Of a DNA stretch of 64,000 bases, positions 547-22,145 are shown in pieces. The stretch's first letter is position 1; every line of letters starts with the position of its first letter. The DNA is from Oscillospiraceae bacterium (GTDB lineage: Bacteria; Bacillota; Clostridia; Oscillospirales; Oscillospiraceae), in the NCBI GenBank assembly GCA_015067525.1, contig SVMH01000002.1:25080-89079 (forward strand), read 5' to 3'. Position numbers and translations under genes: made by a program. Under the pieces are notes generated by a model. The model was not told the DNA's origin. It did not search any database and saw nothing but the letters and a program-made list of their open reading frames with translations.

Positions 547-3500
547 TTTACAGAGTTTATGTAGAAAAGAAAGCCGGCCTCGACAACGAGAGCCGTGCCC
601 TGCTGAGCGAGATCAAGGGCATTCTGGGTATCGAGAGCGTCACCGGCGTACGCGTGCTCAACCGCTACGATGTGGAGCACATTGACGAAGCCCTGTTCAA
701 TGCCTGCGTCACCACCGTGTTCTCCGAGCCCCAGACCGACGATGTGTATTTTGTCCAGCCCGCCCACGAAGGCGTGGTCTTTGCCGTGGAGTATCTGCCC
801 GGCCAGTTTGATCAGCGCGCCGACTCCGCCGCCCAGTGCGTGCAGATGATCGCTCAGTGCGACCGTCCCACCGTCCGCAGCGCCCGTGTCTATCTCATCG
901 AAGGTGACGTCAGCGCCGAGGATGTGGCCGCCATTAAGCACCATGTCATCAACCCCGTGGAGTCCCGCGAGGCCGCCTTGGCGCTGCCCGAGACGCTGGA
1001 TATGGAGTACACCGTGCCCGAGGCTGTGGCCAGCATCGAAGGCTTTACCGAACTGGACGACGCCGGCCTGCAGGCTATGATCGCCGACATGGGCCTTGCC
1101 ATGGACCTGGCCGACATCCGTATGGTGCGTGACTATTTCCGCAGTGAGGGCCGCCAGCCCACCATCACCGAGATCCGCGTGCTGGATACTTACTGGTCCG
1201 ACCACTGCCGTCACACCACCTTTAACACCATCATCGACTCCGTCTCCTTCGAGAGCGAGGAGATCCAGAAGACCTGGGATGCCTATATCGGCACCCGCAA
1301 GGATCTGGGCCGCACCAAGCCCATCTGCCTGATGGATCTGGGTACCATCGCTGCCAAGGCGCTGAAGAAGTCCGGTCAGCTGACCAAGCTGGACGAGAGC
1401 GAGGAGATCAACGCCTGCACCGTGAAGATGAAGGTGACTGTGGATGGGGAAGAGCAGGATTGGCTGCTCCTCTTTAAGAACGAGACCCACAACCACCCCA
1501 CCGAGATCGAACCCTTCGGCGGTGCTGCCACCTGCATTGGTGGCGCCATCCGCGACCCGCTGTCCGGCCGCAGCTATGTCTATGCTGCTATGCGTGTCAC
1601 CGGTGCTGCCGATCCCACCGTGCCCGTTTCCGAAACCATCTCCGGCAAGCTGCCTCAGCGTACCATCGTGACCAAGGCTGCCGCCGGTTATTCCTCCTAC
1701 GGTAACCAGATCGGTCTGGCTACCGGCTTGGTGGATGAAATCTATCACCCCGGCTATGCTGCCAAGCGTATGGAAGTGGGTGCTGTGATCGCTGCTGCTC
1801 CCGCTGCCAATGTCCGCCGCGAAGTGCCTGCTGACGGCGATGTGGTCATCCTGCTGGGCGGCCGCACCGGTCGTGACGGCTGCGGCGGTGCCACCGGTTC
1901 CTCCAAGGCCCACACCGAGGAGAGCCTGACCACCTGCGGCGCTGAGGTGCAGAAGGGTAACGCCCCCGAGGAGCGCAAACTCCAGCGTCTGTTCCGCAAC
2001 GCCGAAGCCAGCCGCATGATCAAGCGCTGCAACGACTTCGGCGCCGGTGGCGTATCCGTTGCCGTTGGCGAACTGGCAGACGGCCTGAACATCAACCTCA
2101 ACGCCGTGCCCCGTAAGTATGAGGGCCTGGACGGCACCGAGCTTGCCATCTCCGAGTCTCAGGAGCGTATGGCAGTCGTCGTCGCCGCCGAGGATGCCGA
2201 GCGTTTCGCCGCTCTGGCCGATGAGGAGAACCTGGAGTCCACCCTGATCGCCAAGGTCACCGCCGAGCCTCGCCTGGTGATGCACTGGAACGGCCAGACC
2301 ATCGTGGACCTGTCCCGCGCCTTCCTGGATACCAACGGTGCAGAGAAGCATGTGGACATCGAAGTTGCCGCTCCTGCTGTCTATGAAGCTGTGAAGCCTG
2401 AAAGCTTTACTACTGGCATGGAGACTGTGTCTGCCGATCTCAATAGTTGCGTCAAGCGCGGCCTCGTGGAGCGCTTTGACTCCACCATCGGTACCGGCAC
2501 CGTGATGATGCCCTTCGGAGGCAAGCATCAGCTGACGCCCTCTCAGTGCATGGTCCACCGTGTCAGCGTGGAGAAGGGTCATACTGATGACTGCTCCTAC
2601 ATGGCATGGGGTTATGATCCCTACATCAGCGAGAAGAGCCCCTATCACGGCGCTTATCTGGCCGTGGTGGAATCCGTCAGCAAGATGGTGGCTGCCGGCG
2701 CCAAGTTCGAGGATGTGTACCTGAGCTTCCAGGAATACTTCGAGCGTCTGCGCACCGAACCCAAGCGCTGGGGCAAGCCTCTGGCCGCTCTGCTGGGTGC
2801 CTACAAGGCCCAGATGGAACTGGGCATCGCTGCCATCGGCGGTAAGGACTCCATGTCCGGCTCCTTCGAGAAGCTGGATGTGCCCCCCACGCTGATCTCC
2901 TTCGCTGTCACCACCGGCAATGTCAACGAGGTGGTGTCCGGCGAGTTCAAGGCTGCCGGCCGCCGTGTGGCATGGCTGCGCCCCCAGCTGGGCGAGGATG
3001 GCCTGCCCACCGCCGAGAGCCTGAAGGACTGCTTCGCCAAGGTCTACGGCTGCGCCAGGACCGCCGTTTATACCCCCACCCGTACCGGCGTGGCCGATGC
3101 CGTGGCCAAGATGTGTTTGGGTAACGGTCTGGGCTTCCGCTATGCCGACGGCATCGCACTGGAAGAGATCTTCGCCCCCGCCTTCGGCTCCTTCATCATC
3201 GAGACCGAGGATGACATCGGCGTGACGCTGGGTTACACCACCGACGACGGCGCTTTGACCTTCGGCGGTGAGCAGGTGGAAATGTCCAAGTTGCTGGCCA
3301 TCTCCGAAGGCAAGCTGGAGGATGTGTATCCCACCCGTGCCGGCAAGCCCTATGAGGTCAGCAATGTGACCTACACCGATGGCTGCACCGTGGCTCCTGC
3401 CATCAAGGCTGCCAAACCCCGTGTGCTGATCCCTGTGTTCCCCGGCACCAACTGCGAGTATGACACCGCCCGCGCCTTCCGTGAGGCCGGTGCCGAGCCC

Positions 3501-4211
3501 GAGATCTTTGTGGTGCGCAACCTGACCGCTTCCGCCGTGTCCGAGAGCGTGGAAGCTTTCGCCAAGAAGCTGCAGCAGGCCAACATCGTATTCCTGCCCG
3601 GTGGCTTCTCCGGCGGCGACGAGCCCGACGGCAGCGGCAAGTTCATCACTGCGTTCTTCCGCAACGGCGCTGTGGCTGACGGTGTGCGCGAGCTGCTGAA
3701 CACCCGCGACGGCCTCATGGGCGGTATCTGCAACGGCTTCCAGGCCCTCATCAAGCTGGGCCTTGTGCCCTACGGTGATATCCGCGATATGGATGATGCC
3801 TGCCCGACCCTGACCTTCAATACCATCGCCCGCCACCAGTCCCGTATCGTCCGCGTCCGCGTGGCTTCCAATCTGTCTCCCTGGCTGCAGGAAGCTCAGG
3901 TGGGCGGCGTGTATAATGTGCCCATCTCCCACGGTGAGGGCCGCTTCCTCGCCAGCGATGAGCTGGTGGCAAAGCTGGCTGCCAACGGCCAGATCGCCAC
4001 GCAGTACGCCGATCTGGACGGCAATGCTACTGACAACATCCTCTTCAACCCCAACGGCTCCGTGCTGGCGGTGGAGGGTATCACCTCTCCCGACGGCCGT
4101 GTCTTCGGTAAGATGGGCCATGCCGAGCGCTTTGTGAAGGGCCTGTATCAGAACGTGCCCGGTGACTATGACATCGGCATGTTCCGCAGCGCTGTGAAGT
4201 ATTTCAAGTAA
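543..4211 (+). CDS. purL: Phosphoribosylformylglycinamidine synthase, single-chain form
   Basis: 1222 aa; 'FKNETHNHPTEIEPFGGAATCIGGAIRDPLSGR' and C-terminal glutaminase 'VFPGTNCEYDTARAF...GICNGFQALIKLGL'; overlaps purD stop. Confidence 0.97.
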   Translation: MIYRVYVEKKAGLDNESRALLSEIKGILGIESVTGVRVLNRYDVEHIDEALFNACVTTVFSEPQTDDVYFVQPAHEGVVFAVEYLPGQFDQRADSAAQCVQMIAQCDRPTVRSARVYLIEGDVSAEDVAAIKHHVINPVESREAALALPETLDMEYTVPEAVASIEGFTELDDAGLQAMIADMGLAMDLADIRMVRDYFRSEGRQPTITEIRVLDTYWSDHCRHTTFNTIIDSVSFESEEIQKTWDAYIGTRKDLGRTKPICLMDLGTIAAKALKKSGQLTKLDESEEINACTVKMKVTVDGEEQDWLLLFKNETHNHPTEIEPFGGAATCIGGAIRDPLSGRSYVYAAMRVTGAADPTVPVSETISGKLPQRTIVTKAAAGYSSYGNQIGLATGLVDEIYHPGYAAKRMEVGAVIAAAPAANVRREVPADGDVVILLGGRTGRDGCGGATGSSKAHTEESLTTCGAEVQKGNAPEERKLQRLFRNAEASRMIKRCNDFGAGGVSVAVGELADGLNINLNAVPRKYEGLDGTELAISESQERMAVVVAAEDAERFAALADEENLESTLIAKVTAEPRLVMHWNGQTIVDLSRAFLDTNGAEKHVDIEVAAPAVYEAVKPESFTTGMETVSADLNSCVKRGLVERFDSTIGTGTVMMPFGGKHQLTPSQCMVHRVSVEKGHTDDCSYMAWGYDPYISEKSPYHGAYLAVVESVSKMVAAGAKFEDVYLSFQEYFERLRTEPKRWGKPLAALLGAYKAQMELGIAAIGGKDSMSGSFEKLDVPPTLISFAVTTGNVNEVVSGEFKAAGRRVAWLRPQLGEDGLPTAESLKDCFAKVYGCARTAVYTPTRTGVADAVAKMCLGNGLGFRYADGIALEEIFAPAFGSFIIETEDDIGVTLGYTTDDGALTFGGEQVEMSKLLAISEGKLEDVYPTRAGKPYEVSNVTYTDGCTVAPAIKAAKPRVLIPVFPGTNCEYDTARAFREAGAEPEIFVVRNLTASAVSESVEAFAKKLQQANIVFLPGGFSGGDEPDGSGKFITAFFRNGAVADGVRELLNTRDGLMGGICNGFQALIKLGLVPYGDIRDMDDACPTLTFNTIARHQSRIVRVRVASNLSPWLQEAQVGGVYNVPISHGEGRFLASDELVAKLAANGQIATQYADLDGNATDNILFNPNGSVLAVEGITSPDGRVFGKMGHAERFVKGLYQNVPGDYDIGMFRSAVKYFK

Positions 4212-4709: not shown

Positions 4710-6383
4710 ATGGAATTCAAGACCGACATCGAAATCGCCCAGGCTTGTACAATGCAGCCCATCACCGAAATTGCTAAAGTGGCCGGTGTGGAAGAGAAAT
4801 ATCTGGAGTTGTACGGTAAGTATAAGGCCAAGGTGGACTATAACCTGCTGCGCGAAACGGACCGTAAGGACGGCAAGCTGATCCTGGTCACCGCCATCAA
4901 CCCCACCCCTGCCGGTGAGGGTAAGACCACCACCACCGTGGGCCTGGCCGATGGTCTGCGCCGTCTGGGCAAGAATACGCTGGTGGCTCTCCGTGAGCCT
5001 TCCCTGGGCCCCGTGTTCGGCGTCAAGGGCGGTGCTGCCGGCGGCGGCTATGCACAGGTGGTGCCCATGGAGGACATCAACCTCCACTTCACCGGTGACT
5101 TCCACGCCATCGGTGCTGCCAACAACCTGCTGGCCGCCATGCTGGATAACCACATTCAGCAGGGCAACAGCCTGGGTATCGACGTTAAGCGCATCGTCTG
5201 GAAGCGCTGCGTGGATATGAACGATCGCCAGCTGCGTAACGTCATCGACGGTCTGGGCGGCCGCATGCAGGGTGTGCCCCGTGAGGATGGCTTCGACATC
5301 ACCGTGGCCAGCGAGATCATGGCAGTTCTGTGCCTGAGCGCCGATATCCCCGACCTGAAGGCCCGCCTGGGCCGCATGGTGGTGGCTTACACCTTCGACG
5401 GTAAGCCTGTCACCGCCCATGACCTGAAGGCCGAGGGCGCTATGGCGGCCCTGCTGAAGGACGCCCTGAAGCCCAATCTGGTGCAGACCCTGGAAGGCAC
5501 GCCTTCCTTCATCCACGGCGGCCCCTTCGCCAATATCGCCCATGGCTGCAACAGCGTCATGGCCACCAAGATCGCTCTGAAGCTCTCTGATTACTGCGTC
5601 ACCGAGGCCGGCTTTGGTGCCGACCTGGGCGCAGAGAAGTTCCTGGACATCAAGTGCCGTCTGGCCGGCCTGACTCCTGCCGCTGTTGTGGTGGTGGCCA
5701 CCGTCCGCGCTCTGAAGAACCATGGCGGCGTACCCAAGGCTGAGCTGAACAACGAGAATCTGGAAGCGCTGGAGAAGGGCCTGCCCAACCTGCTGCAGCA
5801 TGTGGAGAACATCACGCAGGTCTACGGTCTGCCCTGCGTGGTGGCTATCAATGCTTTCCCCACTGATACCGCCGCCGAGCTGAAGCTGGTGGAGGATAAG
5901 TGCCGCGCTCTGGGCGTCAACGTCGCTTTGAGTGAGGTTTGGGCCAAGGGCGGCGAGGGCGGTATGGCTCTGGCCGAGGAAGTGGTTCGCCTGTGCGAAC
6001 AGCCCTCCAACTTCACCTTCGCCTATGATGTGGAGGACAGCATTGAGGATAAGCTCAACGCCATCGCCAAGAAGATCTACCACGCCGACGGTGTGGCGCT
6101 GACTCCCGGTGCCCGCAAGCAGATGAAGGAGCTGGAGGCCAATGGTTTCGGCAACCTGCCCATCTGCATGGCCAAGACCCAGTATTCTTTCTCTGATGAT
6201 CCCGCTCTGCTGGGTGCACCCCGCGGATTTACCGTCACCGTGCGCAACCTGAAGGTCAGCGCCGGCGCCGGCTTCCTGGTGGCCCTGACCGGCGATATTA
6301 TGACTATGCCGGGTCTGCCCAAGGTCCCCGCTGCCGAGAAGATCGACGTGGACGAGACCGGCAAGATCACCGGCCTGTTCTAA
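4710..6383 (+). CDS. fhs: Formate-tetrahydrofolate ligase
   Basis: 557 aa; '[28 protein letters not shown]', '[36 protein letters not shown]'. Confidence 0.98.
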
Positions 6384-7608: not shown

Positions 7609-8886
7609 ATGATCCATCTGCAATTTCCTTACGGGAAAGAACATAAAGAACTTAGTCTGCCCCGCCGTCAGGTGAAGGCTGTGCTGACCTCCGAACTGGA
7701 GCGTTACCGGCCCGACTGCGACGCCGAGACGCTGGTGCGCCGCGCACTGGAAGCGCCCATCGGCTCGCTGCCGCTGCACGAGCTGAGCCGCGGCAAGCAG
7801 CGCGTCACCATCATTGCCAGTGACCATACCCGCCCTGTGCCCAGCAAGCTTTTGATGCCGCAGCTGCTGCGTGAGATCCGCACCGGTAACCCGGAGGCGG
7901 AGATCACCATCCTCATCGCCACCGGCTGCCACCGCGAGACCAGCCGCGAAGAGCTGATCGCCAAATTTGGCGAGGAGATCGTGGCGCAGGAGAAGATCGT
8001 GGTGCATGACTGCGACGATGTGGAGAACATGGTGCTCCTGGGCACGCTGCCCTCCGGCGGCGAGTGCTGGGTCAACCGTCTGGCCTGCGAGGCAGATCTT
8101 CTGGTGTCGGAAGGCTTTATCGAACCCCACTTCTTTGCCGGATATTCCGGCAGCCGCAAGGCGGTGCTGCCCGGTGTGGCGGGCCGCAGCACCGTGCTGG
8201 CCAACCACTGCGCCGAGTTTATCGACCATCCGGCCTCCCGCGCCGGCAGTCTGCAGGAAAATCCCATCCACCGCGATATGGTGTGGGCCGCCCGCAAAGC
8301 GGGTCTGGCCTTTATTCTCAACGTTGTGCTCAACGGCGAGAAGGAGAACATCCACGCCGTGGCAGGTGATATGGAAGCTGCGCACGAAGCGGGCTGCCGT
8401 TTTCTGGAGGGCCTGTGCGGCGTGGAAGCTGCCATGGCCGACATCGTCATCACCACCAACGGCGGCTACCCGCTGGATCAGAACATCTATCAGGCCGTCA
8501 AGGGTATGACGGCGGCGGAAGCCACCGTGAATCAGGGCGGCGTCATCATCATGATGGCCAAGTCCAATGACGGACACGGCGGCGAAGCCTTCTGCCGCGA
8601 ACTGATGGCCGGCGACGATATGGACGCCTTGATGGCCGATATCCTGCGCCGCGGAAGAGGGGAGACGCTGCCCGATCAATGGCAGGCCCAGATCATGATC
8701 CGCATTCTGCAGCGCGCCCGTGTGGTGTACATCTCCGACGCGGATGACGCGCTGGTCAGCAAGCTCCACATGACACCGGCCCACTCGCTGGAAGAGGCCA
8801 TGGTGCTGGCATCGCAGCTGCTGGGCAAGGAGGAACCTACGGTTACCGCCATTCCCGACGGCGTCGGCGTGATCGTTCATTCCTGA
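7609..8886 (+). CDS. LarA-family (nickel-pincer) 2-hydroxyacid racemase/epimerase homologue
   Basis: DUF2088/LarA sequence; residues R75, H108, H174, K184, H200 fall at the positions I recall for L. plantarum LarA active-site residues. Confidence 0.88.
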   Translation: MIHLQFPYGKEHKELSLPRRQVKAVLTSELERYRPDCDAETLVRRALEAPIGSLPLHELSRGKQRVTIIASDHTRPVPSKLLMPQLLREIRTGNPEAEITILIATGCHRETSREELIAKFGEEIVAQEKIVVHDCDDVENMVLLGTLPSGGECWVNRLACEADLLVSEGFIEPHFFAGYSGSRKAVLPGVAGRSTVLANHCAEFIDHPASRAGSLQENPIHRDMVWAARKAGLAFILNVVLNGEKENIHAVAGDMEAAHEAGCRFLEGLCGVEAAMADIVITTNGGYPLDQNIYQAVKGMTAAEATVNQGGVIIMMAKSNDGHGGEAFCRELMAGDDMDALMADILRRGRGETLPDQWQAQIMIRILQRARVVYISDADDALVSKLHMTPAHSLEEAMVLASQLLGKEEPTVTAIPDGVGVIVHS

Positions 8887-8900
8887 GAGGAGCGCATGCC

Positions 8901-10022
8901 ATGAAACAGATTATTATAATCCCCGATTCCTTCAAAGGTACCCTTTCTGCCGTGGAATTCTGCCAGTTGGGCAGGGAAGTGGTGGAGAAGCATCTTCCCG
9001 ACTGCCGCGTGCTGACCATCCCTGTGGCTGACGGCGGCGAGGGCACGGTGGACTGCTTTGTCCATGCGCTGCAGGCCCGCCGCGTCTGCGTCGCGGTAAC
9101 AGGCCCCTGGGGCGAGAAAGTGCAGGCGGAATATGCCGTGCACGAGGACACGGCTTTCGTAGAGATGGCCCAGGCCGCCGGCCTTCCCATGGTGGGCGAG
9201 CGGAAAGATCCGTCCCTGACCACCACCTACGGCGTGGGCGAGCTGATCCGCCACGCGGTGGAACACGGCTGCCGGAACATTGTGGTGGGCCTTGGCGGTA
9301 GCTGTACCAACGACGCCGGTACCGGCGCCGCGGCTGCGCTGGGTGTCCGTTTCCGGGACGAGAGCGGCGCGGAATTTGTGCCCACCGGCTCTACCATGTG
9401 CCGTATCGCCGGCTATGACACGTCGGCGGCGCAGCAGCTCCTTTCCGGCTGCACCGTGACGGCTATGTGCGATATTGACAATCCCATGTACGGCCCCCAG
9501 GGCGCGGCCGCCATCTTCGGCCCGCAAAAGGGCGCGGATGAGGCTATGGTGGAGCGTCTTGACGCAGGCCTGCGCAGCCTTGCCGCCGTGATGCTGCGCC
9601 AGAGCGGCAGAGAGATTGCCGCCATTCCCGGTGCCGGTGCCGCCGGCGCGTTTGGCGCCGGTATCGTGGCTTTTACCGGCGGCCATTTGAAATCCGGTAT
9701 CGAGACGGTGCTGGACTGCGTGCAGTTTGACGAGCTGCTGCGTGACACGGATATGGTGTTCACCGGCGAAGGCCAGCTGGACAGCCAGAGTCTGCGGGGC
9801 AAGGTAGTCATCGGTATTGCCCGCCGCGCAGCAGCGCAGCACGTGCCGGTCACGGCCATCGTGGGCAGCGTGGGTGAGGGTGCCGAGGGCGCTTATGACT
9901 TGGGCGTCACGTCGGTTTTCAGCATCAACCGCCGCGCGGAGGACTTTTCCGTGTCCCGCCACAAGACGAAGGAGAATTTCACGGCCACCATGGACGCCAT
10001 CGTCCGTCTGCTGGCAAGATGA
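8901..10022 (+). CDS. Glycerate kinase (GlxK/GarK family)
   Basis: 'IIIPDSFKGTLSAVEFCQ', 'VADGGEGTVDCF', 'GLGGSCTNDAGTGAAAALG', 'FTGEGQLDSQSLRGK'. Confidence 0.93.
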   Translation: MKQIIIIPDSFKGTLSAVEFCQLGREVVEKHLPDCRVLTIPVADGGEGTVDCFVHALQARRVCVAVTGPWGEKVQAEYAVHEDTAFVEMAQAAGLPMVGERKDPSLTTTYGVGELIRHAVEHGCRNIVVGLGGSCTNDAGTGAAAALGVRFRDESGAEFVPTGSTMCRIAGYDTSAAQQLLSGCTVTAMCDIDNPMYGPQGAAAIFGPQKGADEAMVERLDAGLRSLAAVMLRQSGREIAAIPGAGAAGAFGAGIVAFTGGHLKSGIETVLDCVQFDELLRDTDMVFTGEGQLDSQSLRGKVVIGIARRAAAQHVPVTAIVGSVGEGAEGAYDLGVTSVFSINRRAEDFSVSRHKTKENFTATMDAIVRLLAR

Positions 10023-10186: not shown

Positions 10187-13100
10187 ATGAGTGAGATGAA
10201 CTATCAGAATGAGGAACTGCGCCGCGTATTGCAGCAGCTGAGCGCGGAAGTGCCGGCAGCCGGCGCGCTGCTGGCGGACGAGGCTCTTATGGCGCAGCTG
10301 GAAGCGGTGGGCGGTCATGAAAGCGATGCCTGCCTCCGTACGCTGGAGCTGTGCACTGCCGTAATGGTGCAGCGCCCTGCGGATATAAAGCAGTGGCTCA
10401 GCGACCTTTGCGACCGCCTCAGCGACAATATGTTTCCCGATGCCCAGCACCCCCGCCGCGACCTGACAGAGGATGAGCGGCTGTATCTGGCGGTGCTGGA
10501 GAATGTACTGCCGCAGCACGTTGCAGAGTTTGACCCGCTGACGGATGTACTGCGCTTTGAAGAGGAGGCTCTACACCGTAGCCGCGTAGCCAAGGAATAC
10601 GCCCGCTACCGCCGCGCCATCGTGGCCGCCCACGTGCTGCCTCTGATGCGTATCAGCCGCGAGATCCGCCCCTTTGACCCGGCCTCCCATACCATCGGCG
10701 TGCACAATGTGGCGCTGCACACCGCCATCATGGCGGACAAAGCCGGCATCGCTGTGGACCTGCCGCTGGTCAGTGCCGCGGCCTTTGGCCACGATATCGG
10801 CAAGTTTGGCTGCCGCGGTGACGATGCCCGCCGCATTCCGTATCTGCACTACTACTATACGTGGCAGTGGTTCAGCGAACACGACATGGAGGAACTGGGC
10901 CACGTGTCGGCCAACCACTCCACGTGGGATCTGGAGTTTGAGAACCTGCCGGTGGAGTCGCTGCTGCTGATCTATGCCGACTTTCGCGTCCGTGGTACCC
11001 GCGGGGCGGACGGTAAGGAGCAGATTCGCATCTATACGCTGGCCGAAGCTTATGAAATGATCTTCTCCAAGCTCTACGACATGACACCGGAGAAACAGAA
11101 GCGCTACCAGACTGTTTACTACAAGCTGCGCGATTTTGAGCGGCTGCTGTGCTCGGCCGGTGTGCCGACCGATATGGGCGAGGATACGCTGCGTGCGGCC
11201 GATACCCGGGATGAATCCCTGCTTTCCGCGGAAGACGCTTTGCAGGCGCTGCGGAACATGGCTCTTTCCGGTTCCATGCGATTGATGCGTACCATCACCA
11301 CCGATCACTCCTTTGAGCAGCTCCTGGAGCAGGCCAAGGGCGAGAAGAACCTGCAGCGTATCCGCACTTACCTCATGCTGCTGCAGGAATACAGCACCTA
11401 CATGACCAAGTCCAACAAGAAAAAGACGCTGCTGCTGCTCTATGAGCTGCTGATGCATCCTGACGGCGATGTGCGCCGTATTGCCGGTCAGATCATGGGC
11501 CAGATTCTGGCCAACAGCGGCCCTAAATACCGCAAGGAGCGCCCGCAGGGCGCCAAGCGGGGCGTCATGATCCCCACCATGATGGCGCTGCTGGATGAGT
11601 CGGTGGTGCTGTGGGAGACGTATATCGAGGCCTGCCTCCATCCCGACCGCAAAATTGCGCCCAAGCACGCTCTGCGCATCTCCAACAGTCTGAAAACGCT
11701 GTGTGAGTCTCTCTTTGCCAGCAGCGATCCCAAGGAGTCCCGCCAGATGGTGGAGCCGATCCTGCGCCGTCTCTATGACGCACAGGGTGCGGACCGCTTT
11801 GTGCTGGTGGACGCCCTGACCATGATCCCCTATGAGCATATCCCGGAGGAACACCGCATTTCCATCGTGGAATCGCTGGGCGCCATGCTGAGCGAGGATG
11901 AGATCCGCCTGCAGCTGACGGCCCTGCGCTGTCTGGAATCGCTGCGCGTCCATCCGGAAGTTGTGTGTAAAGTGGAAGAGGTTGTCAATGCTTTTGATAC
12001 CTCGTTTTATAGCGACCGTGAGGTGCTGGAATACCGCAAACGCTGCGCTCTGGGCCGGCGTGAGGACAAGCTGGACGAGGACAGCGCTTCCCGTATCTAC
12101 CTCAGTAACCTGAAGAGCGCCGTTCACTGGACGGTGAAGCTGACCCAGATCGATATGCTCTGCGACCATGCCAGAGCCTGCCCTGAAACGGCGTTTCACA
12201 CGGCCATGCACCTTTCCAACGTGCTGTCCGTCAGTGAGCATTTCCCCGTGCGCCAGTCTGCCGGCCAGCATTTGCTGGAGATCGCGCCGCTGCTGAGCGT
12301 TGACCATATCAACGAGATCACCATCGACCTGCTGCGCGAACTGGAGACCGGTCAGGATGAGATCTCCTACGTGATCCCGCCGTATCTGGGCGGTTTGATG
12401 TGCCTGCTGCCGGAGAAGGAGCTGTGGGAAGCTGAGGACTATCTGGAGCAGCTGGCGCGCGGCAGCGCTATTCGCCCCGCCCGCGTGGCACTGCATGTGG
12501 TGGGTGAGATGCTCAACACGCTGCCGGAGCGCGAAAGTGCCATGATCGACCGGACGCTGGGTCTTCTGATGACCGGCATCTGCCACTACGAGCCCACCAT
12601 CCACCAGAGCGCGCTGGCCGTACTGTGCCGCGACGTGCTGGGCAGCAGCCGCATTGCGCTGCAGCGCCGCGCGGACATGTTCGTCCACCTGCACAAAAAG
12701 CTGCTGACGGTGCTGGCGGAGGCGCAGCAGGACCAGCTGTCCTTCTTCAACAGCGCCGCCATGCTCAACCACCTTTACCGCTTTATTGTGCGCCGTGAGG
12801 TGGACTGCGGCGAGTTTGCCTTCCCGGCACCCAAGCCGGCGGCCTTCTTCCCCGGCACCTTTGACCCCTTCTCCGTGGGCCATAAGCAGATCGTAGAAGA
12901 GATCCGCCGTATGGGCTTTGAGGTGTACCTGTCGGTGGATGAGTTCTCTTGGTCCAAGATGCCGCTGCCCAAGCTGCTGCGCCGTCAGATCGTCAGCATC
13001 TCGGTGGCCGACCAGTGGGATACCTATCTCTTCCCGGATGATATTCCTGTCAACATCGCCATGCCGGAGGATCTGGCCAAGCTGCCCCGGTTGCTGCCGG

Positions 13101-14875
13101 ACCGTCCGCTGTATCTGGTGGCAGGCAGCGATGTGATCTATAACGCCTCTGCCTACCGTGGCGCCCAACCGGGCAGCGCGGCGGAGTATAACCATATCAT
13201 TTTCTGCCGCAATCTCAGTGAGCAGGCGGAGCATTCTGCCTTGAAGGAGATCATTCGCGGCGATCTGAAGATCCTGTCGCTGCCGCCGTTCTATGAGTCG
13301 GTCAGCTCCACCCGTATCCGCCAGTTTATTGACCGCAAGCTGGATATCTCCATGCTGGTGGACCCTGTGGTGCAGTCCTTTATCTATGAGTACGGTTTCT
13401 ATGTCCGCTCTCCTGAGCTGAAGAACGTGATGAAGCCGCAGGACGTCTATTTCTCCCGTTACCGCGAGGCGGATGCTGCGCTGCCGGAGGAACTGAACGC
13501 CACCATCTCCGCCCTGAGTAAGCCTCTGGCGGTGACGCTGCGGGAAAGACCCGATACCATGCTGGGTTGGGCGGTTGGCCATACACTGCAGGCGGCGGAT
13601 CTCTATGACGCCCTGCACTCTCTGGAGGCGGCCCGCTATGTGCGCCGCTACGCTTCCGGCCGCATCCTCATGATCGATGAGGTATATACCGGCGAAACGC
13701 GCACCATGGAACGGTGCCGCATGCAGGTCAACGAGCTGCTGGCCCGCAGTCTGGCCAATGACCACACCTATGCCCTGTGCCGCTGCACGCCGGAGGATAC
13801 GGCGCTGCGTGAGGCGCTGGAGCAGATGGGCTTCCAGCCGGTGGCAGACTGTGAAAATACCTTCTGCGTGGATATGCGCGCGCCGGTCATGCTGCTGCAG
13901 GACGTGCTGCTGTGGCTGAAAAAGCCCCATCAGGACGATGCCGACGTGAAAAAGGCGGTGCTGCGCACCCGCCCGAAGATGCGCCGCGCCCTGTGCGATA
14001 TGTTCCCGGGCCAGCTGGTGCTGTGCTTTGACTCGGAGATGCTCAATCAGGCGGTGATGGAGCGGGTGCAGCAGGTCAACGGCGTGCAGGATGTGCCCGC
14101 CGGCGTGCGCCGTCTGGGCCCCTATATGTGTGTGCCCTACGGTAAGATCCTCTCCAACGAGATCGTGCCCAATACGGTGACCAAGACGCTCCATGCCGAA
14201 AAGTGCTTCGACTCCGAGATCGAGAACTTCGACATCGTGGAATATCCCGGCTATTCCCAACTCCATACCCAGGCCCGGACGCTGCGCTCGTTCCGCCGCC
14301 CGCTGCTGCTGGTGGATGATTTCCTCCACAAGGGCTATCGGATCGAGAAGCTGGATAAGGTCTTCCGTGAGGAGCAGCTGACCATCGACCGCATTATCGT
14401 GGGCATCATGTCCGGCAACGGCAAGGATCTGATGCAGGTCCAGGGCCGTCAGGCAGAGTGTGAGTATTTTATCCCCAATCTGCGCTACTGGCTGACGGAG
14501 AGTCTTCTCTATCCCTTTGTGGGCGGTGACAGCGTGGGTCAGCAGACCATGACGGAGCATATGCTGCCGTCCATCAACCTGATCCTGCCGTACTACTATC
14601 CCAACTTCATGCCGGAGGTCAGTGAAAAGAACATCCGTAGCTTCAGCCGTGTGGCGCTGGAAAACGCCCTGACCATCATGCGGGAGCTGGAGCGCTGCCA
14701 CCAGCGCATTTTCAACACCTCGCTGACCATCCGCCGACTGGGCGAAGCGCTGCAGCAGCCCCGCCTGCCGGATAAGGGCGACTGCATGAAATATGACTTC
14801 AGCCGTCCGGCTTCGGATTATCTGGTGGAGGACCTGCGGCAGATCCAGCGTATCTGCCGCCGTGAAAAGGAGTAA
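10187..14875 (+). CDS. ~1562-aa multidomain protein: N-terminal HD domain, central HEAT-like helical region, NadD/CoaD-type nucleotidylyltransferase domain, possible GNAT-like segment, C-terminal PRTase-like domain
   Basis: HD: 'VHNVALHTAIMADKAGI..AAAFGHDIGKFG...IYADFRVRG'; nucleotidylyltransferase: 'AAFFPGTFDPFSVGHKQIVEE' and 'SVSSTRIRQFI'; PRTase-like: 'RRPLLLVDDFLHKGYRIEKLDKVF'; start set at ATG 10187 with GAGGTG SD. Confidence 0.85.
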   Translation: MSEMNYQNEELRRVLQQLSAEVPAAGALLADEALMAQLEAVGGHESDACLRTLELCTAVMVQRPADIKQWLSDLCDRLSDNMFPDAQHPRRDLTEDERLYLAVLENVLPQHVAEFDPLTDVLRFEEEALHRSRVAKEYARYRRAIVAAHVLPLMRISREIRPFDPASHTIGVHNVALHTAIMADKAGIAVDLPLVSAAAFGHDIGKFGCRGDDARRIPYLHYYYTWQWFSEHDMEELGHVSANHSTWDLEFENLPVESLLLIYADFRVRGTRGADGKEQIRIYTLAEAYEMIFSKLYDMTPEKQKRYQTVYYKLRDFERLLCSAGVPTDMGEDTLRAADTRDESLLSAEDALQALRNMALSGSMRLMRTITTDHSFEQLLEQAKGEKNLQRIRTYLMLLQEYSTYMTKSNKKKTLLLLYELLMHPDGDVRRIAGQIMGQILANSGPKYRKERPQGAKRGVMIPTMMALLDESVVLWETYIEACLHPDRKIAPKHALRISNSLKTLCESLFASSDPKESRQMVEPILRRLYDAQGADRFVLVDALTMIPYEHIPEEHRISIVESLGAMLSEDEIRLQLTALRCLESLRVHPEVVCKVEEVVNAFDTSFYSDREVLEYRKRCALGRREDKLDEDSASRIYLSNLKSAVHWTVKLTQIDMLCDHARACPETAFHTAMHLSNVLSVSEHFPVRQSAGQHLLEIAPLLSVDHINEITIDLLRELETGQDEISYVIPPYLGGLMCLLPEKELWEAEDYLEQLARGSAIRPARVALHVVGEMLNTLPERESAMIDRTLGLLMTGICHYEPTIHQSALAVLCRDVLGSSRIALQRRADMFVHLHKKLLTVLAEAQQDQLSFFNSAAMLNHLYRFIVRREVDCGEFAFPAPKPAAFFPGTFDPFSVGHKQIVEEIRRMGFEVYLSVDEFSWSKMPLPKLLRRQIVSISVADQWDTYLFPDDIPVNIAMPEDLAKLPRLLPDRPLYLVAGSDVIYNASAYRGAQPGSAAEYNHIIFCRNLSEQAEHSALKEIIRGDLKILSLPPFYESVSSTRIRQFIDRKLDISMLVDPVVQSFIYEYGFYVRSPELKNVMKPQDVYFSRYREADAALPEELNATISALSKPLAVTLRERPDTMLGWAVGHTLQAADLYDALHSLEAARYVRRYASGRILMIDEVYTGETRTMERCRMQVNELLARSLANDHTYALCRCTPEDTALREALEQMGFQPVADCENTFCVDMRAPVMLLQDVLLWLKKPHQDDADVKKAVLRTRPKMRRALCDMFPGQLVLCFDSEMLNQAVMERVQQVNGVQDVPAGVRRLGPYMCVPYGKILSNEIVPNTVTKTLHAEKCFDSEIENFDIVEYPGYSQLHTQARTLRSFRRPLLLVDDFLHKGYRIEKLDKVFREEQLTIDRIIVGIMSGNGKDLMQVQGRQAECEYFIPNLRYWLTESLLYPFVGGDSVGQQTMTEHMLPSINLILPYYYPNFMPEVSEKNIRSFSRVALENALTIMRELERCHQRIFNTSLTIRRLGEALQQPRLPDKGDCMKYDFSRPASDYLVEDLRQIQRICRREKE

Positions 14876-14877
14876 CC

Positions 14878-16107
14878 ATGCTGAAACGATGGAATGATAT
14901 CTGCCTGTGCGGGGAAGAGGAACAGCTCTTTCCCGCCGGCGCTCAGCCGGTAACGGAGCTGTTTGCGCCGCTGGTGTTTCTGGTGCGGCGCGACGGCATG
15001 ACGTGCCGCGGCATCTGGGCCATCAACTCCCTTGCTGAGTTGGCGGAAGAGGAGGGCGTGCGCTGCCTGCTGCCCTGTGCCGACACGGAGACAGACGAAT
15101 TGGCGGACTTTGTGCACTGCCACGGTGCCACGGTGGCCAATGTGACCTTTGGACGCGTATTTGACCTGCTGCCCCGCATTTTGTTTCCCAAAACGGACGG
15201 TTTTCGTGTGACGCTGGTAGGTTTGGGCGATGTGGGCGGCACGGTGCTGACCGGCTTAAAGCTGCTGGGCCGCGAGATCGATGAGATCGCTGTCTTTGAC
15301 CCCAACGAGGCCATGTGCCGCCGCTATGAGATGGAGCTCAATCAGGTGCTGCCGGAGCATCCCGGCGGATATATGCCCCGGGTGAGCATCTGCAGCGAAG
15401 AACAGCTTTTCAACTGCGATGTGTTCATCTTCACCGCTTCCCGCGGTGTGCCCGCATTGGGCAGCGGCGTCAAGGACGTGCGTATGGCCCAATTTGAGGC
15501 CAACCGCGCCATGCTGGGTGTGTACACCCGTAAGGCCCGTGAGGCGGGCTTTGAGGGATTGTTCTGTCAGGTGTCCGATCCGGTGGATCATCTATCCCGC
15601 GAGGTGTTTCTGCACTCTAACCGCGATGACACCGGCGCCTGCGATTTCGCCGGCCTCCTGCCGGAGCAGGTGCAAGGCTTCGGCCTTGGCGTGATGGCGG
15701 CCCGCGCTGCCTATTACGCGGAGAAAGAGGGCGTTCCCTTCGAAAAGGGACGGGTCTACGGCCCCCACGGTCAGGGACTGATCGTGGCCAATTGCCCCGA
15801 TGCCGGTTACGATGACGCCGCCTCCTGCCGTTTGACCGACCTGACACGCACGGCCAATCTGGCGGTGCGTGAGCTGGGCTTCAAACCCTATATCGCCCCG
15901 GGCCTTTCCTCGGCGGCGGTATCCATCCTGCGCCTGCTGCGCGGCGAGGTGCATTACGGCGCCGTGCCGCTGGGCGGTGCGTATTTTGGCTGCACCAGCC
16001 GTATGACGCGCCGCGGCGTGGAACTGCAGCGCGAACCGGTCTGTGAGACTTTGCTGCAGCGTCTGGAGGAAACTCACCGCGCACTGCGTGAGTTTGATTA
16101 CGCATGA
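14878..16107 (+). CDS. LDH/MDH-like Rossmann-fold dehydrogenase family protein with N-terminal extension
   Basis: 'VTLVGLGDVGGTVLTGLKLLG', 'DVFIFTASRGVPALGSGVKDVRMAQFEANRAML', 'VSDPVDHLSREVF'. Confidence 0.75.
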   Translation: MLKRWNDICLCGEEEQLFPAGAQPVTELFAPLVFLVRRDGMTCRGIWAINSLAELAEEEGVRCLLPCADTETDELADFVHCHGATVANVTFGRVFDLLPRILFPKTDGFRVTLVGLGDVGGTVLTGLKLLGREIDEIAVFDPNEAMCRRYEMELNQVLPEHPGGYMPRVSICSEEQLFNCDVFIFTASRGVPALGSGVKDVRMAQFEANRAMLGVYTRKAREAGFEGLFCQVSDPVDHLSREVFLHSNRDDTGACDFAGLLPEQVQGFGLGVMAARAAYYAEKEGVPFEKGRVYGPHGQGLIVANCPDAGYDDAASCRLTDLTRTANLAVRELGFKPYIAPGLSSAAVSILRLLRGEVHYGAVPLGGAYFGCTSRMTRRGVELQREPVCETLLQRLEETHRALREFDYA

Positions 16108-17153
16108 GCGGCGCCGTGTATGTGCTGCGCCTTGGCCGCAGCCCCCGACTGGAAAAGATGCTGGATGCGGCGCTGTGCGGCCGCGAAGTGAAAGAACTGA
16201 CGTCGGACGCACTGGCACAGGGTATTTACGACCGCCGCATTCTGTTCGCCGTTGCCGTGGATGAACTGGGCGTGGATGAAACGTTCCTGCGTGCGCTGCG
16301 GACGCTGCGCAGCAGCGGACAGTGCCTGCGCGGCTGCGTGGGCGGCATCATTGTGGATGGCGCGGATGAGCTTTACACCAAATCCGCGGCGCAGGAATTG
16401 GCGCTCAGCGCCAATCAGGTCGGCTGTACGTTCCCCGGAAAGCCGCTGGTGGAGGGCACGGGCTCTCTTTATAACCAGCACATTCTGGCCCAGCGGCTGG
16501 GCCTGAGCTGGGAGGAGACCTATTTCGCCCGCGGCAGGGAACTGGTGGAGCGGATCCTGGCCTTTGAAGCGCCGAAATTCGATAACCCCAAGATCCTGAT
16601 GCTCCACGCGTCGGATAATCTGCGCTCCAACACGGTCTGGCTGGGCCGGCAGCTGCTGCAGCGGCTGCCGGAGAATTTCTCCGTGCGGGAGATCTCACTG
16701 CAAAACGGCACCATCCACGATTGCCGCGGCTGCTCCTATGCAGCCTGCCTCCACTTTTCTCAGAGCGGCACCTGCTTTTACGGCGGCACCATCTCGCAGG
16801 AGGTGCTGCCGGCCATTCGGGAATGTGACGCCATGCTCTTTTTGTGCCCCAACTACAATGACGCAGTCAGTGCCAATCTGATGGCCCTCTTTAACCGCAT
16901 GACCAACCTTCTGGTGCAGCAGGAACTGATGGATAAGCACCTGTTCGGCGTGGTGGTTTCCGGCTATTCCGGTAGCGATCTGGTGGCCCGCCAGCTGCTG
17001 GGTGCGCTGTGCTTCAACAAGACGGTGACGCTGCCGGCTCAATTCTGCATGATGGAAACGGCGCACGACCCCGGCTCTGCGCAGAAGCTGGCTGGCGTAG
17101 AGCAGCGTTTGGATGCGTTTGCCGCCCATATGGCGCAGACTTTGCAAAAATGA
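16104..17153 (+). CDS. Flavodoxin-like / NAD(P)H-dependent FMN reductase-fold protein with extra N-terminal domain
   Basis: 'PKILMLHASDNLRSNTVWLGRQLLQRL...ISLQNGTIHDCRGCSYAACLHFSQSGTCFYGG...AMLFLCPNYNDAVSANLMALFNRM'; 4-nt ATGA overlap with upstream gene. Confidence 0.75.
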   Translation: MSGAVYVLRLGRSPRLEKMLDAALCGREVKELTSDALAQGIYDRRILFAVAVDELGVDETFLRALRTLRSSGQCLRGCVGGIIVDGADELYTKSAAQELALSANQVGCTFPGKPLVEGTGSLYNQHILAQRLGLSWEETYFARGRELVERILAFEAPKFDNPKILMLHASDNLRSNTVWLGRQLLQRLPENFSVREISLQNGTIHDCRGCSYAACLHFSQSGTCFYGGTISQEVLPAIRECDAMLFLCPNYNDAVSANLMALFNRMTNLLVQQELMDKHLFGVVVSGYSGSDLVARQLLGALCFNKTVTLPAQFCMMETAHDPGSAQKLAGVEQRLDAFAAHMAQTLQK

Positions 17154-17190
17154 GAAAACACACGCAGACACGGTCTGCGTGTGTTTTTTG
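17152..17190. terminator. Bidirectional terminator between convergent genes
   Basis: AAAACACACGCAGAC-ACG-GTCTGCGTGTGTTTTTT. Confidence 0.9.
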
Positions 17191-17198
17191 CGCCGCGA

Positions 17199-18341
17199 TC
17201 AATCCGCAGCCACCGCCAGAATTGTTTCGGCAAAGCCTTTGGCAAAGTAGCGCGCACCCATAATGGCCTCATCCAGCGAGTTGCCGGCGGCCCCGATCTC
17301 CACCAGCAGCGAGCCGGAACACATCTGCTGGTTGTAGCGATACCCCCTTGCGGCGATGGGCCGCATCAGTGTGGGGGAGAGGGCGTTGAGCTGTTGCTGC
17401 ACGGCGACCGCCAGCTGCAGGTTATCCTTCCAGCCGTCGTGGCCAAGCCCCATCACAAGGCAGCACTGCGCCACGCGGGGGTCTTCACCGGTGATCAGCT
17501 TATACTGGTTGCCGTTGGCGTCCTGAATGGCGTCACGGTGCAGATCCAAAACATAGGTCAGAGTGGGATACTTCTCCAGATAGCTCTTTATGGACTGCAG
17601 ACTGCTGTTGTAGGCGTCATTATAGCTGGCGGCGTCGTGCAGCGTGCGGTCGTGCAGCACCGATATGCCGTAGCCGGAGAGAACAGCGGCCACCTCATCG
17701 CCGATGCGCACCATGTTGCAGGAGGTGTCCCGTGTGCGGTAGGTACCGCTGGGATCGTATTCCTGTCCTTTGGGCATGGTGTATGCCTCGGTGGCATGGC
17801 TATGGACGATGAGCACCTGCGGCCCTTCCGTGCCCAGACGGGCCGAAAAACTGCCGCCGCTCAACTCTTCCGCATCCAGCGTGCGGGACGAGGTATTTTT
17901 GATGTAGGCACTGCCTGCCACCGTGTAGCTCTTCGGATTGGAGGGGATCACGGTTTGAGAGGGAACGCCGTTATCCGCAAAAGCAAGATCGTCACTCTTG
18001 ATATCCACTGCCGGTGTCGATGGCGGAGGGGAGGGGGCGTCTGGTTCATCCTCATCCTCCGGCGTCTGTGTGATCAGCTGCGCCATCAAAGGCACGATGG
18101 TGCTTCGCTGCTGCATCAGCAGCGGGGACTGGCACAGCGCCAACACGTTGACTGCGGTGAGCATGTCTGTGCCGAAGAGGTCTCCCAGCTCCCAGCGCAG
18201 GATCAGCTGGGCCGGTGAGGTGTTGGCGGCGGCTTCCACGGCGGCGCGAAGGGAATCACTGTCTGCCGTGATGACGGCAGTCCATAAGGTCAGCAGGGAA
18301 CAGACGAGGGCGGACAGGCGGCGGAATAGCGGTTTTTTCAT
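17199..18341 (-). CDS. spoIIP: Stage II sporulation protein P
   Basis: 'VLIVHSHATEAYTM', 'YVLDLHRDAI', 'LLVEIGAAGNSLDEAI'; start set at MKKPLFRR (18341). Confidence 0.92.
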   Translation of the reverse strand: MKKPLFRRLSALVCSLLTLWTAVITADSDSLRAAVEAAANTSPAQLILRWELGDLFGTDMLTAVNVLALCQSPLLMQQRSTIVPLMAQLITQTPEDEDEPDAPSPPPSTPAVDIKSDDLAFADNGVPSQTVIPSNPKSYTVAGSAYIKNTSSRTLDAEELSGGSFSARLGTEGPQVLIVHSHATEAYTMPKGQEYDPSGTYRTRDTSCNMVRIGDEVAAVLSGYGISVLHDRTLHDAASYNDAYNSSLQSIKSYLEKYPTLTYVLDLHRDAIQDANGNQYKLITGEDPRVAQCCLVMGLGHDGWKDNLQLAVAVQQQLNALSPTLMRPIAARGYRYNQQMCSGSLLVEIGAAGNSLDEAIMGARYFAKGFAETILAVAAD

Positions 18342-18493
18342 GGCGTTGCTCCTTGCCTCAGGTGTTTTCGTAGACAAGCCTATGCTCGAATTTGCATTTT
18401 ATGACCGGTAAAAGAAAAAATATTTCGGTTATGATTGCATTTTTTCGAACATGCTGTATAATGTAACCAACAATACCGAAGGAGGCACCTATC

Positions 18494-18823: not shown

Positions 18824-18954
18824 GTAAAAAAGGACAAAACAGGGAGCCTTCCGCTCCCTGTTTTTCTTTGTAACCAAGCTGTCATCTTTCCTTTCTTGAC
18901 AGAATCCGACAGCCCTCTATAATAAAGACAATGAGTTTTCCGGGAGGGTCCAAT

Positions 18955-20397
18955 ATGAAAAAGAAAGTGTTGTGGGCCGTCGGCGGCGTGCTGTTGCTGG
19001 CTGTGCTGCTGATCGGCGTTCTGAGTGCCGTAAACGGCTATTTTATTTTGGCTCCGTCTGTGCAGCTGCAGCTCAACGGCGAGGCAGCGGTTGAGATCGC
19101 AGCCCACAGCGAATATGCGGATGCCGGCGTCGTGGCACGCCGCGGCAAGGAGGATCTGAGCGCGCAGGTGGTCACGGACGGCACTGTGGATGTGACGAAG
19201 CCGGGTACCTATACCGTTACGTACCGCCTGACGGTGCGGGATAAGGAATATGTGCAGCAGCGCACGGTAACTGTGGTGGACCGCGAGGCGCCGGTTCTGG
19301 AGCTGCTGGGCGACGCGCAGATGACCGTCTCGGCCCGAAAGTTCTATGAAGAACCCGGCTTTACCGCCACGGACCGCTGCGACGGCGACCTTGCCGCTGC
19401 GGTGCAGGTGACGGAAGCCGTGGAAGGGGAAACGCTGACGCTGACCTATACGGTCAAGGATGCTGCCGGTAACGAAAGCAGCGTGCAGCGCGTTGTTACT
19501 ATCCGCGATGAGACGGCACCGGTCATTTCGCTTAAGGGCAGCAGCACGGTGTATGTGACGCTGGGCGGTACCTATCAGGAGCGAGGCTGCAGCGCGACAG
19601 ATGATGTGGACGGCGATGTAACGGGCGCAGTGGTGCGCAGCGGCAGCGTGGATACTTCCACCGCCGGAACCTACACCATCCGCTACAGCGTCAAAGACAA
19701 GGCGGGCAACAGTACAAGTGCCACAAGAACTGTAAAGGTATATACCTATACGCCAAATTCCGCCGACAGAGTCTACCTCACCTTTGATGACGGCCCCAGC
19801 ACCAATGTTACGCCCCGGATCCTGGACATTCTGGCCGAGCATAACGTGAAGGCAACATTCTTTATCCTCAACTATTCGGAAAGCACCAAATATCTGGTGG
19901 GACGTATGATCAATGAGGGCCACACCGTGGCCATCCACGGCTATTCTCACGACTATGCCACCATCTACGCCAGCGACGAGGCCTTTATGCAGAACGTCTA
20001 TCGTCTGCGGGATAAGCTGCTGGCAGACTTCGGCTATCATGCCACCATTATCCGATTCCCCGGCGGCAGCTCCAACACCGTCAGCAAGTCTTATAATAAG
20101 GGAATTATGAGCCGCCTTGTCAAGCGGGTGGAACAGGGAGGCTTCGTCTACTTTGACTGGAACATCTCCAGCGGTGACGCCAGCGCAGCAGGTCTCAGCA
20201 GCACGCAGATCTACAGCAATGTGACAAGCCGCTTGGGTCGCGGCCGAAACAATGTGGTGCTGATGCATGACAGCAGCGCCAAGGGAACCACGGCGGATGC
20301 GCTGGAGAATATCATCATTTACGGCAAGGCCAACAACTACACCTTTGCACCTCTGACGCCGTCTACCAGACCGGTGCATCACGGCGTGGCCAACTGA
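18955..20397 (+). CDS. Polysaccharide deacetylase with N-terminal membrane anchor and tandem Ig-like (DUF5011/HYR-type) domains
   Basis: 'VYLTFDDGPSTNVTPRILDIL', 'IHGYSHDY', 'IIRFPGGSSN'; repeated '..APVLELLGDAQMTVSARKFYEEPGFTATDRCDGDL..' and '..APVISLKGSSTVYVTLGGTYQERGCSATDDVDGDV..'. Confidence 0.92.
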   Translation: MKKKVLWAVGGVLLLAVLLIGVLSAVNGYFILAPSVQLQLNGEAAVEIAAHSEYADAGVVARRGKEDLSAQVVTDGTVDVTKPGTYTVTYRLTVRDKEYVQQRTVTVVDREAPVLELLGDAQMTVSARKFYEEPGFTATDRCDGDLAAAVQVTEAVEGETLTLTYTVKDAAGNESSVQRVVTIRDETAPVISLKGSSTVYVTLGGTYQERGCSATDDVDGDVTGAVVRSGSVDTSTAGTYTIRYSVKDKAGNSTSATRTVKVYTYTPNSADRVYLTFDDGPSTNVTPRILDILAEHNVKATFFILNYSESTKYLVGRMINEGHTVAIHGYSHDYATIYASDEAFMQNVYRLRDKLLADFGYHATIIRFPGGSSNTVSKSYNKGIMSRLVKRVEQGGFVYFDWNISSGDASAAGLSSTQIYSNVTSRLGRGRNNVVLMHDSSAKGTTADALENIIIYGKANNYTFAPLTPSTRPVHHGVAN

Positions 20398-20492
20398 GGG
20401 TTTACAAAAGTTTCACATACGTACTCTTGTTGAAGACGCGGTAAACTGCTATAATGTCGTTAAGAATATCCGGAAAGGAAGGAAATGACACC

Positions 20493-21413
20493 ATGCGCGT
20501 GATCGATCTGGAAAATATCAACTACAATATGCGCAATGAAACGCAGTTTGTGCTGCGCTGCGAGGAGGTCTATCATGACAAGATCAGCGCCGCCGTCGGC
20601 ACGATTTTGTCCAGCCGTAAGCCCTTCGTGGCGCTGACCGGCCCCTCCGGCAGCGGCAAGACCACCACGGCCATGCGCCTGCGGGAGTATCTGGAGAATC
20701 TGGGCGTGCAGGTGAATGTCCTGAGCATGGACAATTTCTTCCTGCCGCTGGATCAGCGCCCTCCCGAGGCATCGGACTGGGAATCCCCCTATTGCGTCAA
20801 CATCGACCTGCTGGTCTCCACGCTGCACCGTCTGGCCGACGGGGAAGAGGTGGATGTACCCTGGTACGATTTCAAGACCGGTATGACCGGTGGTTATAAC
20901 AAGGTGCAGGGCCATAAGGGCGGCATTATTCTGGCCGAGGGTATTCACATGCTCAACCCGCTGATTTTTGACAAGATCCGCGACGAGGCCCACGGCGTGT
21001 ATGTGGCACCCCGTACCCGTATCATCACCAATGACGACAAGATCGTCCGGCCCGAACAGCTGCGCGTGGCCCGCCGCATGATCCGCGATTACTATACCCG
21101 CGGACACTCCCTGCGCGATACGGTGATGCGCGCCGAGAGCGTGGACCGCGGCGAGGTGCAGTATATTCAGCCCAACAAGAAGAACGCCTCCATCCACATC
21201 GATACCTTCCACGACTATGAGCCCTGCCTGCTGGCCAAGGCCTTCGCCGAGCTGCCGGCTTTCCGCGAGGAACTGGACGATGCCTTCGTGGAAGAGCACG
21301 GCCTGACCGACCTGATGAAGGTGGTGCGCGGCGTGGAGCCTCTGCGCACGCCCTATGTGCCCCGCAATTCCCTCATTCGTGAGTTTGTGGGCGGCAGCGT
21401 ATTTGAGTATTAA
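20493..21413 (+). CDS. Uridine kinase / phosphoribulokinase family P-loop protein
   Basis: 'LTGPSGSGKTTTAMRLREYL', 'VLSMDNFFLPLDQRP', 'GGIILAEGIHMLNP'. Confidence 0.85.
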   Translation: MRVIDLENINYNMRNETQFVLRCEEVYHDKISAAVGTILSSRKPFVALTGPSGSGKTTTAMRLREYLENLGVQVNVLSMDNFFLPLDQRPPEASDWESPYCVNIDLLVSTLHRLADGEEVDVPWYDFKTGMTGGYNKVQGHKGGIILAEGIHMLNPLIFDKIRDEAHGVYVAPRTRIITNDDKIVRPEQLRVARRMIRDYYTRGHSLRDTVMRAESVDRGEVQYIQPNKKNASIHIDTFHDYEPCLLAKAFAELPAFREELDDAFVEEHGLTDLMKVVRGVEPLRTPYVPRNSLIREFVGGSVFEY

Positions 21414-21452: not shown

Positions 21453-21530
21453 GTCTGCGGCATTGTGGAATATTTGACAAGGGACGCAGGGAGGAGTATA
21501 ATAAGACCAGTTAATAAAGGGGGAGTATCA

Positions 21531-22145
21531 ATGAAGATCATTACTATCAGTCGTGAATTTGGCAGCGGAGGCCGTGAGCTGGGCAAACGTCTGGCTGATG
21601 AACTGGGCATCCCCTGCTATGACCATGAGATCATTGAAATGATCGCCAAGGAAAACGGCTTTGATGAGCGCTATGTGGCCAACGTCTCGGAAAAGAGCAT
21701 TGAAGCGGCCTATCCGCTGACCATCGGCCACCGCTTCGCCATGCCGCCTCTGCAGATCATGGATCAGCCCATCCGTGTGGCAGCTGCCCAGCGGCAGATC
21801 ATTGAAAACTTTGCCAAGCAGAGTGACTGCGTCATCGTGGGCCGCTGCGCCGACGTGATCCTGGAGGATATGAAGCCGCTGAACCTGTTTGTCTATGCCG
21901 ATATGCCGTCCCGCCTGCAGCGCTGTAAGGACCGCGCGCCGGAGGGTGAGAACCTGACGGATACCGAACTGATGCGCATGATCCGCCAGATCGACAAGCA
22001 GCGCCTGCAGCACCACCAGATGTACAGCGATATGAAGTGGGGCGCCAAGGAGGCATACCATCTGTGCGTCAACACCTCCGGCAAGGAGATTAAGTCGCTG
22101 ATCCCGGCACTGGCTGCCTATGTCCGCGCTTGGTTCGAAGCATAA
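21531..22145 (+). CDS. Cytidylate kinase-like family protein
   Basis: 'MKIITISREFGSGGRELGKRLADELGIPCYDHEII'. Confidence 0.9.
   Translation: MKIITISREFGSGGRELGKRLADELGIPCYDHEIIEMIAKENGFDERYVANVSEKSIEAAYPLTIGHRFAMPPLQIMDQPIRVAAAQRQIIENFAKQSDCVIVGRCADVILEDMKPLNLFVYADMPSRLQRCKDRAPEGENLTDTELMRMIRQIDKQRLQHHQMYSDMKWGAKEAYHLCVNTSGKEIKSLIPALAAYVRAWFEA

Follow-up and report, generated by a model that had tools for sequence, protein, structure and literature searches.

What might a bacterial protein of 1562 aa do when it carries HD, helical-repeat, nucleotidylyltransferase, GNAT-fold, and phosphoribosyltransferase (PRTase)-fold parts on one chain? Its gene lies at positions 10187 to 14875 (+ strand) of the 64-kb stretch of Oscillospiraceae DNA analyzed here (the window). 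The initial annotation had read it as a single frame of about 1562 aa, and the sequence agrees. The + frame has no stop codon from 10046 through 14875, and full-length relatives exist. We placed the start at the ATG at 10187, which has GAGGTG immediately 5′, because relatives begin at the same point and the ribosome site is good. An antisense open reading frame (ORF) at 10571 to 14701 overlaps the gene on the opposite strand. We rejected it as a gene because it is a high-GC shadow of the + frame, which is conserved (35 to 77% identity) and has the G+C bias of coding DNA (0.65, 0.38, and 0.79 at codon positions 1, 2, and 3). The chain is uninterrupted wherever the contig permits. A candidate natural split in the single-contig genome G538 (L204, G538:C1:319000-326800) consists of two overlapping ORFs produced by a frameshift in a GA run and is probably an assembly error.

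No model in Pfam, NCBIfam, or PADLOC covers the full-length protein, in keeping with the initial view that its whole architecture has no characterized example. The nucleotidylyltransferase is the only domain that scores above a Pfam cut-off, and PADLOC returned no family at E ≤ 0.1 for the giant protein or either of the two partner proteins described below. Open-access papers yielded nothing relevant on the five-part architecture and its partners. The single domains and the pairing of NadD with HD have precedents; no library family corresponds to the chain of five parts with its two partners. Alignments of the giant protein were built from 60 to 64 relatives. AlphaFold models of its two halves (mean pLDDT of 90.1 and 90.0; pTM of 0.88 and 0.89) were searched with Foldseek.

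The HD motif set noticed at the start belongs to a domain at 10568 to 11182 (+; residues about 128 to 332) that matches HD domains in profile-profile comparison (hhalign, P = 3e-9). All six metal ligands of the dinuclear pattern H...HD...H...H...D are present, and these residues (H168, H202, D203, H221, H244, and D265) are identical in 69/69 sequences covering them. The six-ligand motif is the mark of dinuclear HD enzymes, YqeK among them (PMC8177086). Judged by its residues, the domain looks catalytic, and its ligand arrangement is also compatible with dinuclear phosphodiesterases and with other chemistries of HD domains. The helical middle of the chain, suspected of being repeat-like, turned out to be a HEAT/ARM-like solenoid (11231 to 12808, +; residues about 349 to 874). 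Its model is all-helical with a pLDDT of 90, and a Foldseek search with the first half of the protein retrieved ARM/HEAT proteins at 4e-6; the scaffold matched an engineered repeat protein, CAND1, and the PP2A scaffold.

Is the nucleotidylyltransferase that follows related to NadD or to CoaD, both of which had been named for its signature? The domain (12824 to 13411, +; residues about 880 to 1075) is above the cut-off for Pfam PF01467 (CTP_transf_like), and the best Foldseek matches in the PDB were NadD, at 4e-9. Sequence scores were likewise highest against NadD models, reaching 2e-13 among the relatives, which places the domain in the NadD class rather than the CoaD class. All these scores fall below the NCBIfam NadD equivalog cut-off of 112 to 150 bits, with 28.6 to 29.2 bits for the window protein and at most 50 for relatives. 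The motifs GTFDPF-(S/T)x(G/S)H and SST(R/Q)IR (SSTRIR in the window protein) agree with the NadD pattern GxFxP..(H/T)xGH and ISSTxIR. G890, D893, H899, S1040, S1041, and R1045 are identical in 70/70 sequences, and the G preceding H899 is replaced by S in 29 of the 70. An unusual DEFSWSK stretch is invariant, and Y990, placed by eye, stands at the position of the NadD nicotinate-stacking Trp. On these residues, this domain also looks catalytic.

The last two domains were assigned from fold and from weak sequence scores, neither from a curated cut-off. In the PDB, NadD entries took up the Foldseek list obtained with the second half of the protein, so fold support for these two domains comes from a viral library and from profiles. 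The region at 13436 to 13924 (+; residues about 1084 to 1246) had been described as possibly GNAT-like, and its fold may well be: hhalign matched it to GNATs at P = 6e-4, and Foldseek to viral N-acyltransferases at 4.5e-4. The Q/RxxGxG/A acetyl-CoA loop of GNAT acyltransferases is absent, both from residues 1084 to 1246 and from the relatives' consensus, and this is the least conserved part of the giant protein. The following region (13934 to 14626, +; residues about 1250 to 1480) contains VDDFLHKGYR and matched PRTases at P = 2e-4 (hhalign). Control comparisons of the GNAT region with PRTases and of the PRTase region with GNATs gave P values of 0.26 and 0.62. All nine PDB profile matches of the PRTase region at E < 10 were PRTase-fold enzymes, and HGPRT and OPRT were among its Foldseek matches. 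Each of these lines is weak; together they are consistent with a type-I PRTase fold.

The C-terminal segment had also been likened to a PRPP loop, a comparison that holds for the fold and the acidic pair but not for the phosphate loop. The giant protein shares fold and the acidic pair VDD with type-I phosphoribosyltransferases (HGPRT, APRT, and OPRT), and the pair is essentially invariant among 69 to 70 sequences. In contrast to the standard VDD-xxx-TGxT, its 5′-phosphate loop reads VDD-LLH-xGxR, so that the T/S residues of the PRPP motif DD..(T/S)Gx(T/S) are lost and only DD is kept; scores are below the family cut-offs. Given the missing acetyl-CoA loop and the altered PRTase loop, both domains may, to judge from their motifs, bind rather than catalyze.

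The strongest clue to function is a pair of partner genes that the initial annotation did not contain. In the window, the giant gene is the first of a three-gene unit. It is followed after 2 bp by a gene for a 409-aa LDH/MDH-fold NAD-dependent dehydrogenase-like protein (partner 1; 14878 to 16107, +) and then, with a 4-bp overlap, by one for a 349-aa FMN-reductase-fold protein (partner 2; 16104 to 17153, +). Directly after the third gene, a pattern scan found a terminator-like 15-bp hairpin (17155 to 17187) that closes the unit and faces the convergent spoIIP (17199 to 18377, −); it would serve as a bidirectional terminator common to both. The Rossmann NAD-binding half of partner 1 matched a PDB LDH profile at E = 5.6e-9. 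Compared with L-lactate/malate dehydrogenases, this half aligns (E = 6e-9) and R202 and the GPHG histidine are conserved, whereas the protein has an N-terminal extension of ~100 residues and a second half too divergent for significant alignment. Within the catalytic Asp-Arg-His set, R276 and H297 are invariant and the Asp position is apparently Met, in an alignment made there by eye. Partner 2 matches PF03358 (E = 4.4e-15), as do 30/30 relatives. It shares this fold and a cysteine cluster with NADPH-dependent FMN reductases and iron-sulfur flavoproteins, from which it differs in having ~160 additional N-terminal residues. The compact cysteine motif of the iron-sulfur flavoprotein Isf is CX2CX2CX4-7C; partner 2 instead has CX2CX4CX8C, formed by the invariant C207, C210, C215, and C224.

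Among 80 flanked giant-gene loci, the dehydrogenase was found in 72 and the FMN-reductase-fold protein in 71, almost always immediately 3′ and on the same strand; missing cases were mostly contig ends. The same association is seen across 401 genomes of the window's family. The counts are 65 genomes for the giant protein (a 66th match, a 52-residue fragment, was left out), 65 for the dehydrogenase, and 64 for the flavoprotein. The 65 genomes with the giant gene include 64 with the dehydrogenase and 62 with the flavoprotein, compared with 1 and 2, respectively, of the 336 genomes without it. Most genomes that break the pattern have fragmented assemblies. G260 carries the giant gene mid-contig and the two partners together on a different long contig; in the L092 genome, the giant gene is likewise apart from the partner pair. 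Since co-occurrence holds even where the genes are unlinked, the tie between the giant protein and its partners is likely functional, not merely positional. Pairwise distances within the trio correlate (r = 0.84 to 0.92), part of which common ancestry alone would account for. In the L111 genome, the giant gene is present and neither partner was detected.

Beyond the trio, no neighboring gene is conserved across clades. Directly upstream in the window are lactate racemase LarA (7609 to 8886, +) and glycerate kinase (8901 to 10022, +); we rejected a link to the giant gene, as other clades do not conserve the pairing. Farther upstream are a single-chain PurL-type FGAM synthase (543 to 4208, +; 1222 aa, with AIRS and glutaminase domains) and formate-tetrahydrofolate ligase (4710 to 6380, +). 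Past spoIIP lie a polysaccharide deacetylase (18931 to 20394, +), preceded in its chain by several bacterial Ig-like domains, and adjoining uridine kinase-like (20454 to 21410, +) and cytidylate kinase-like (21465 to 22142, +) genes. Riboswitch control of the operon was also considered and rejected, as no NAD or other riboswitch lies immediately upstream in 19 loci.

How widely is the giant protein shared? Its relatives number in the hundreds, are about 35 to 77% identical, and are patchily distributed across Clostridia from gut and soil. The protein also occurs, at full length, in 2/197 genomes of the order, and it was found in 7/398 other genomes sampled from the phylum. When GTDB species were scanned, 563 stretches matched, and each of the best 79 loci belongs to Clostridia or to unspecified Firmicutes/Bacillota. 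In the protein tree, copies fall into two deep clades and largely track genus lines. The window's own genus carries both versions (L208 and L209 versus L007 and L014), which are ~38% identical and belong to different deep clades. Plasmid carriage was dismissed: the sole match labeled as a plasmid (L125, NZ_CP154629.1) is a chromosome-like 2.6-Mb record of Acetoanaerobium noterae. This record has the complete trio.

The closest known system is the NadD-YqeK fusion (e.g., JCVISYN3A_0380; PRK07152), in which YqeK hydrolyzes NaAD and the wrong-base analogues made by NadD and so proofreads NAD synthesis (PMC9426524). Like the giant protein, the fusion carries a NadD-class adenylyltransferase and a six-ligand HD hydrolase on one chain, and the comparison first drawn with NadD and YqeK was apt in both respects. 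Unlike the fusion, which runs NadD then YqeK over about 360 aa, the 1562-aa giant protein has the reversed order, with HD N-terminal, a HEAT scaffold of ~520 residues in between, and the GNAT- and PRTase-fold domains after the nucleotidylyltransferase. Its family's best score against PRK07152 is 33 bits, far from the cut-off of 315. By analogy, its likely chemistry is an extension of that of NadD-YqeK. The genome of the window encodes a separate NadD-YqeK fusion, which rules out the giant protein as the housekeeping NadD.

We tentatively favor an explanation in which the giant protein is a HEAT-scaffolded multienzyme that would form and edit a NAD-like (di)nucleotide for its two redox partners. 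The analysis establishes the domains, the conserved HD and nucleotidylyltransferase motifs, and the joint occurrence of the trio; the substrate, the order of the steps, and the roles of the partners are what we infer. The NadD-like center would transfer a nucleotidyl group onto a mononucleotide-like substrate, and the PRTase-fold domain might make or hold that phosphoribosyl substrate. The dinuclear HD domain would remove faulty or excess product by hydrolysis, the task that YqeK performs for NadD. That product, either a NAD-type dinucleotide or a modified one, would serve, or be processed by, the LDH-fold and FMN/Cys4 partners. That the protein might build, break, and exchange a cofactor, as first suggested, is plausible. 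Supporting the multienzyme explanation are the near invariance of the HD ligands, the nucleotidylyltransferase core (GTFDPF, H899, and SSTxIR), and the PRTase acidic pair in 69 to 70 sequences. The NadD-best scores and structures, the NadD-YqeK precedent, and the co-occurrence of the trio, including where the genes are unlinked, also argue for it. Against it stand the loss of the PRTase T/S residues, the absence of the GNAT loop, the lack of a riboswitch in 19 loci, and the fit of the HD domain to other chemistries. The separate NadD-YqeK fusion also counts against it, since NAD itself is already made; for the same reason, the product is probably other than plain NaAD. It is doubtful that the trio makes and uses a novel NAD-like dinucleotide cofactor, with the giant protein forming the mononucleotide, adenylating it, and proofreading it on a single scaffold, and the LDH-fold and FMN/Cys4 proteins as its dedicated redox users.

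Could the same domains serve repair rather than synthesis? The nucleotidylyltransferase and HD domains might recycle damaged dinucleotides of the existing NAD/NaAD pool while the redox partners restore damaged forms. The precedent of YqeK, which sanitizes NaAD analogues (PMC9426524), the two redox partners, and the patchy, accessory distribution all suit such salvage. However, patchy occurrence would be odd if a universal cofactor were repaired, and no known damaged form suits all domains, so we consider it rather unlikely. Signaling is improbable, although YqeK is an Ap4A hydrolase (PMC8177086): here the nucleotidylyltransferase would make an Ap4A-type dinucleotide alarmone that the HD domain destroys, and the GNAT and PRTase folds, whose altered-looking loops would be expected in sensors, would sense ligands on the HEAT scaffold and control the redox partners. 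Those partners resemble metabolic enzymes, and no transcription regulator or signaling partner is conserved near the giant gene.

Redox partners would also suit a pathway that builds a peripheral metabolite. There the nucleotidylyltransferase would activate a phosphate that is not a nucleotide, and the redox steps would fall to the LDH-fold and FMN proteins. The first histidine of the nucleotidylyltransferase motif is replaced by S or T, a feature shared with CoaD (TxGH), but the scores of the domain favor NadD and no further biosynthetic gene is conserved next to the trio; we give this account a low probability. An anti-phage or conflict system is very improbable. A large multidomain protein, a patchy distribution, and two versions inside one genus might suggest one, yet copies mostly track genus lines, the partners are redox enzymes, and no defense neighbors are conserved. 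The giant family had no match in 50,697 phage records and none in PADLOC, and we rejected it as a phage or defense gene on these results.

The giant protein represents an undescribed family, widely shared in anaerobes, whose catalytic motifs are mostly intact and whose two partners are faithful. These features predict a missing three-gene pathway in nucleotide-cofactor metabolism. Discovery of a dinucleotide product would broaden the NadD-YqeK idea of synthesis and proofreading on one chain, and it could bring to light a cofactor or signal new to the biology of gut bacteria.
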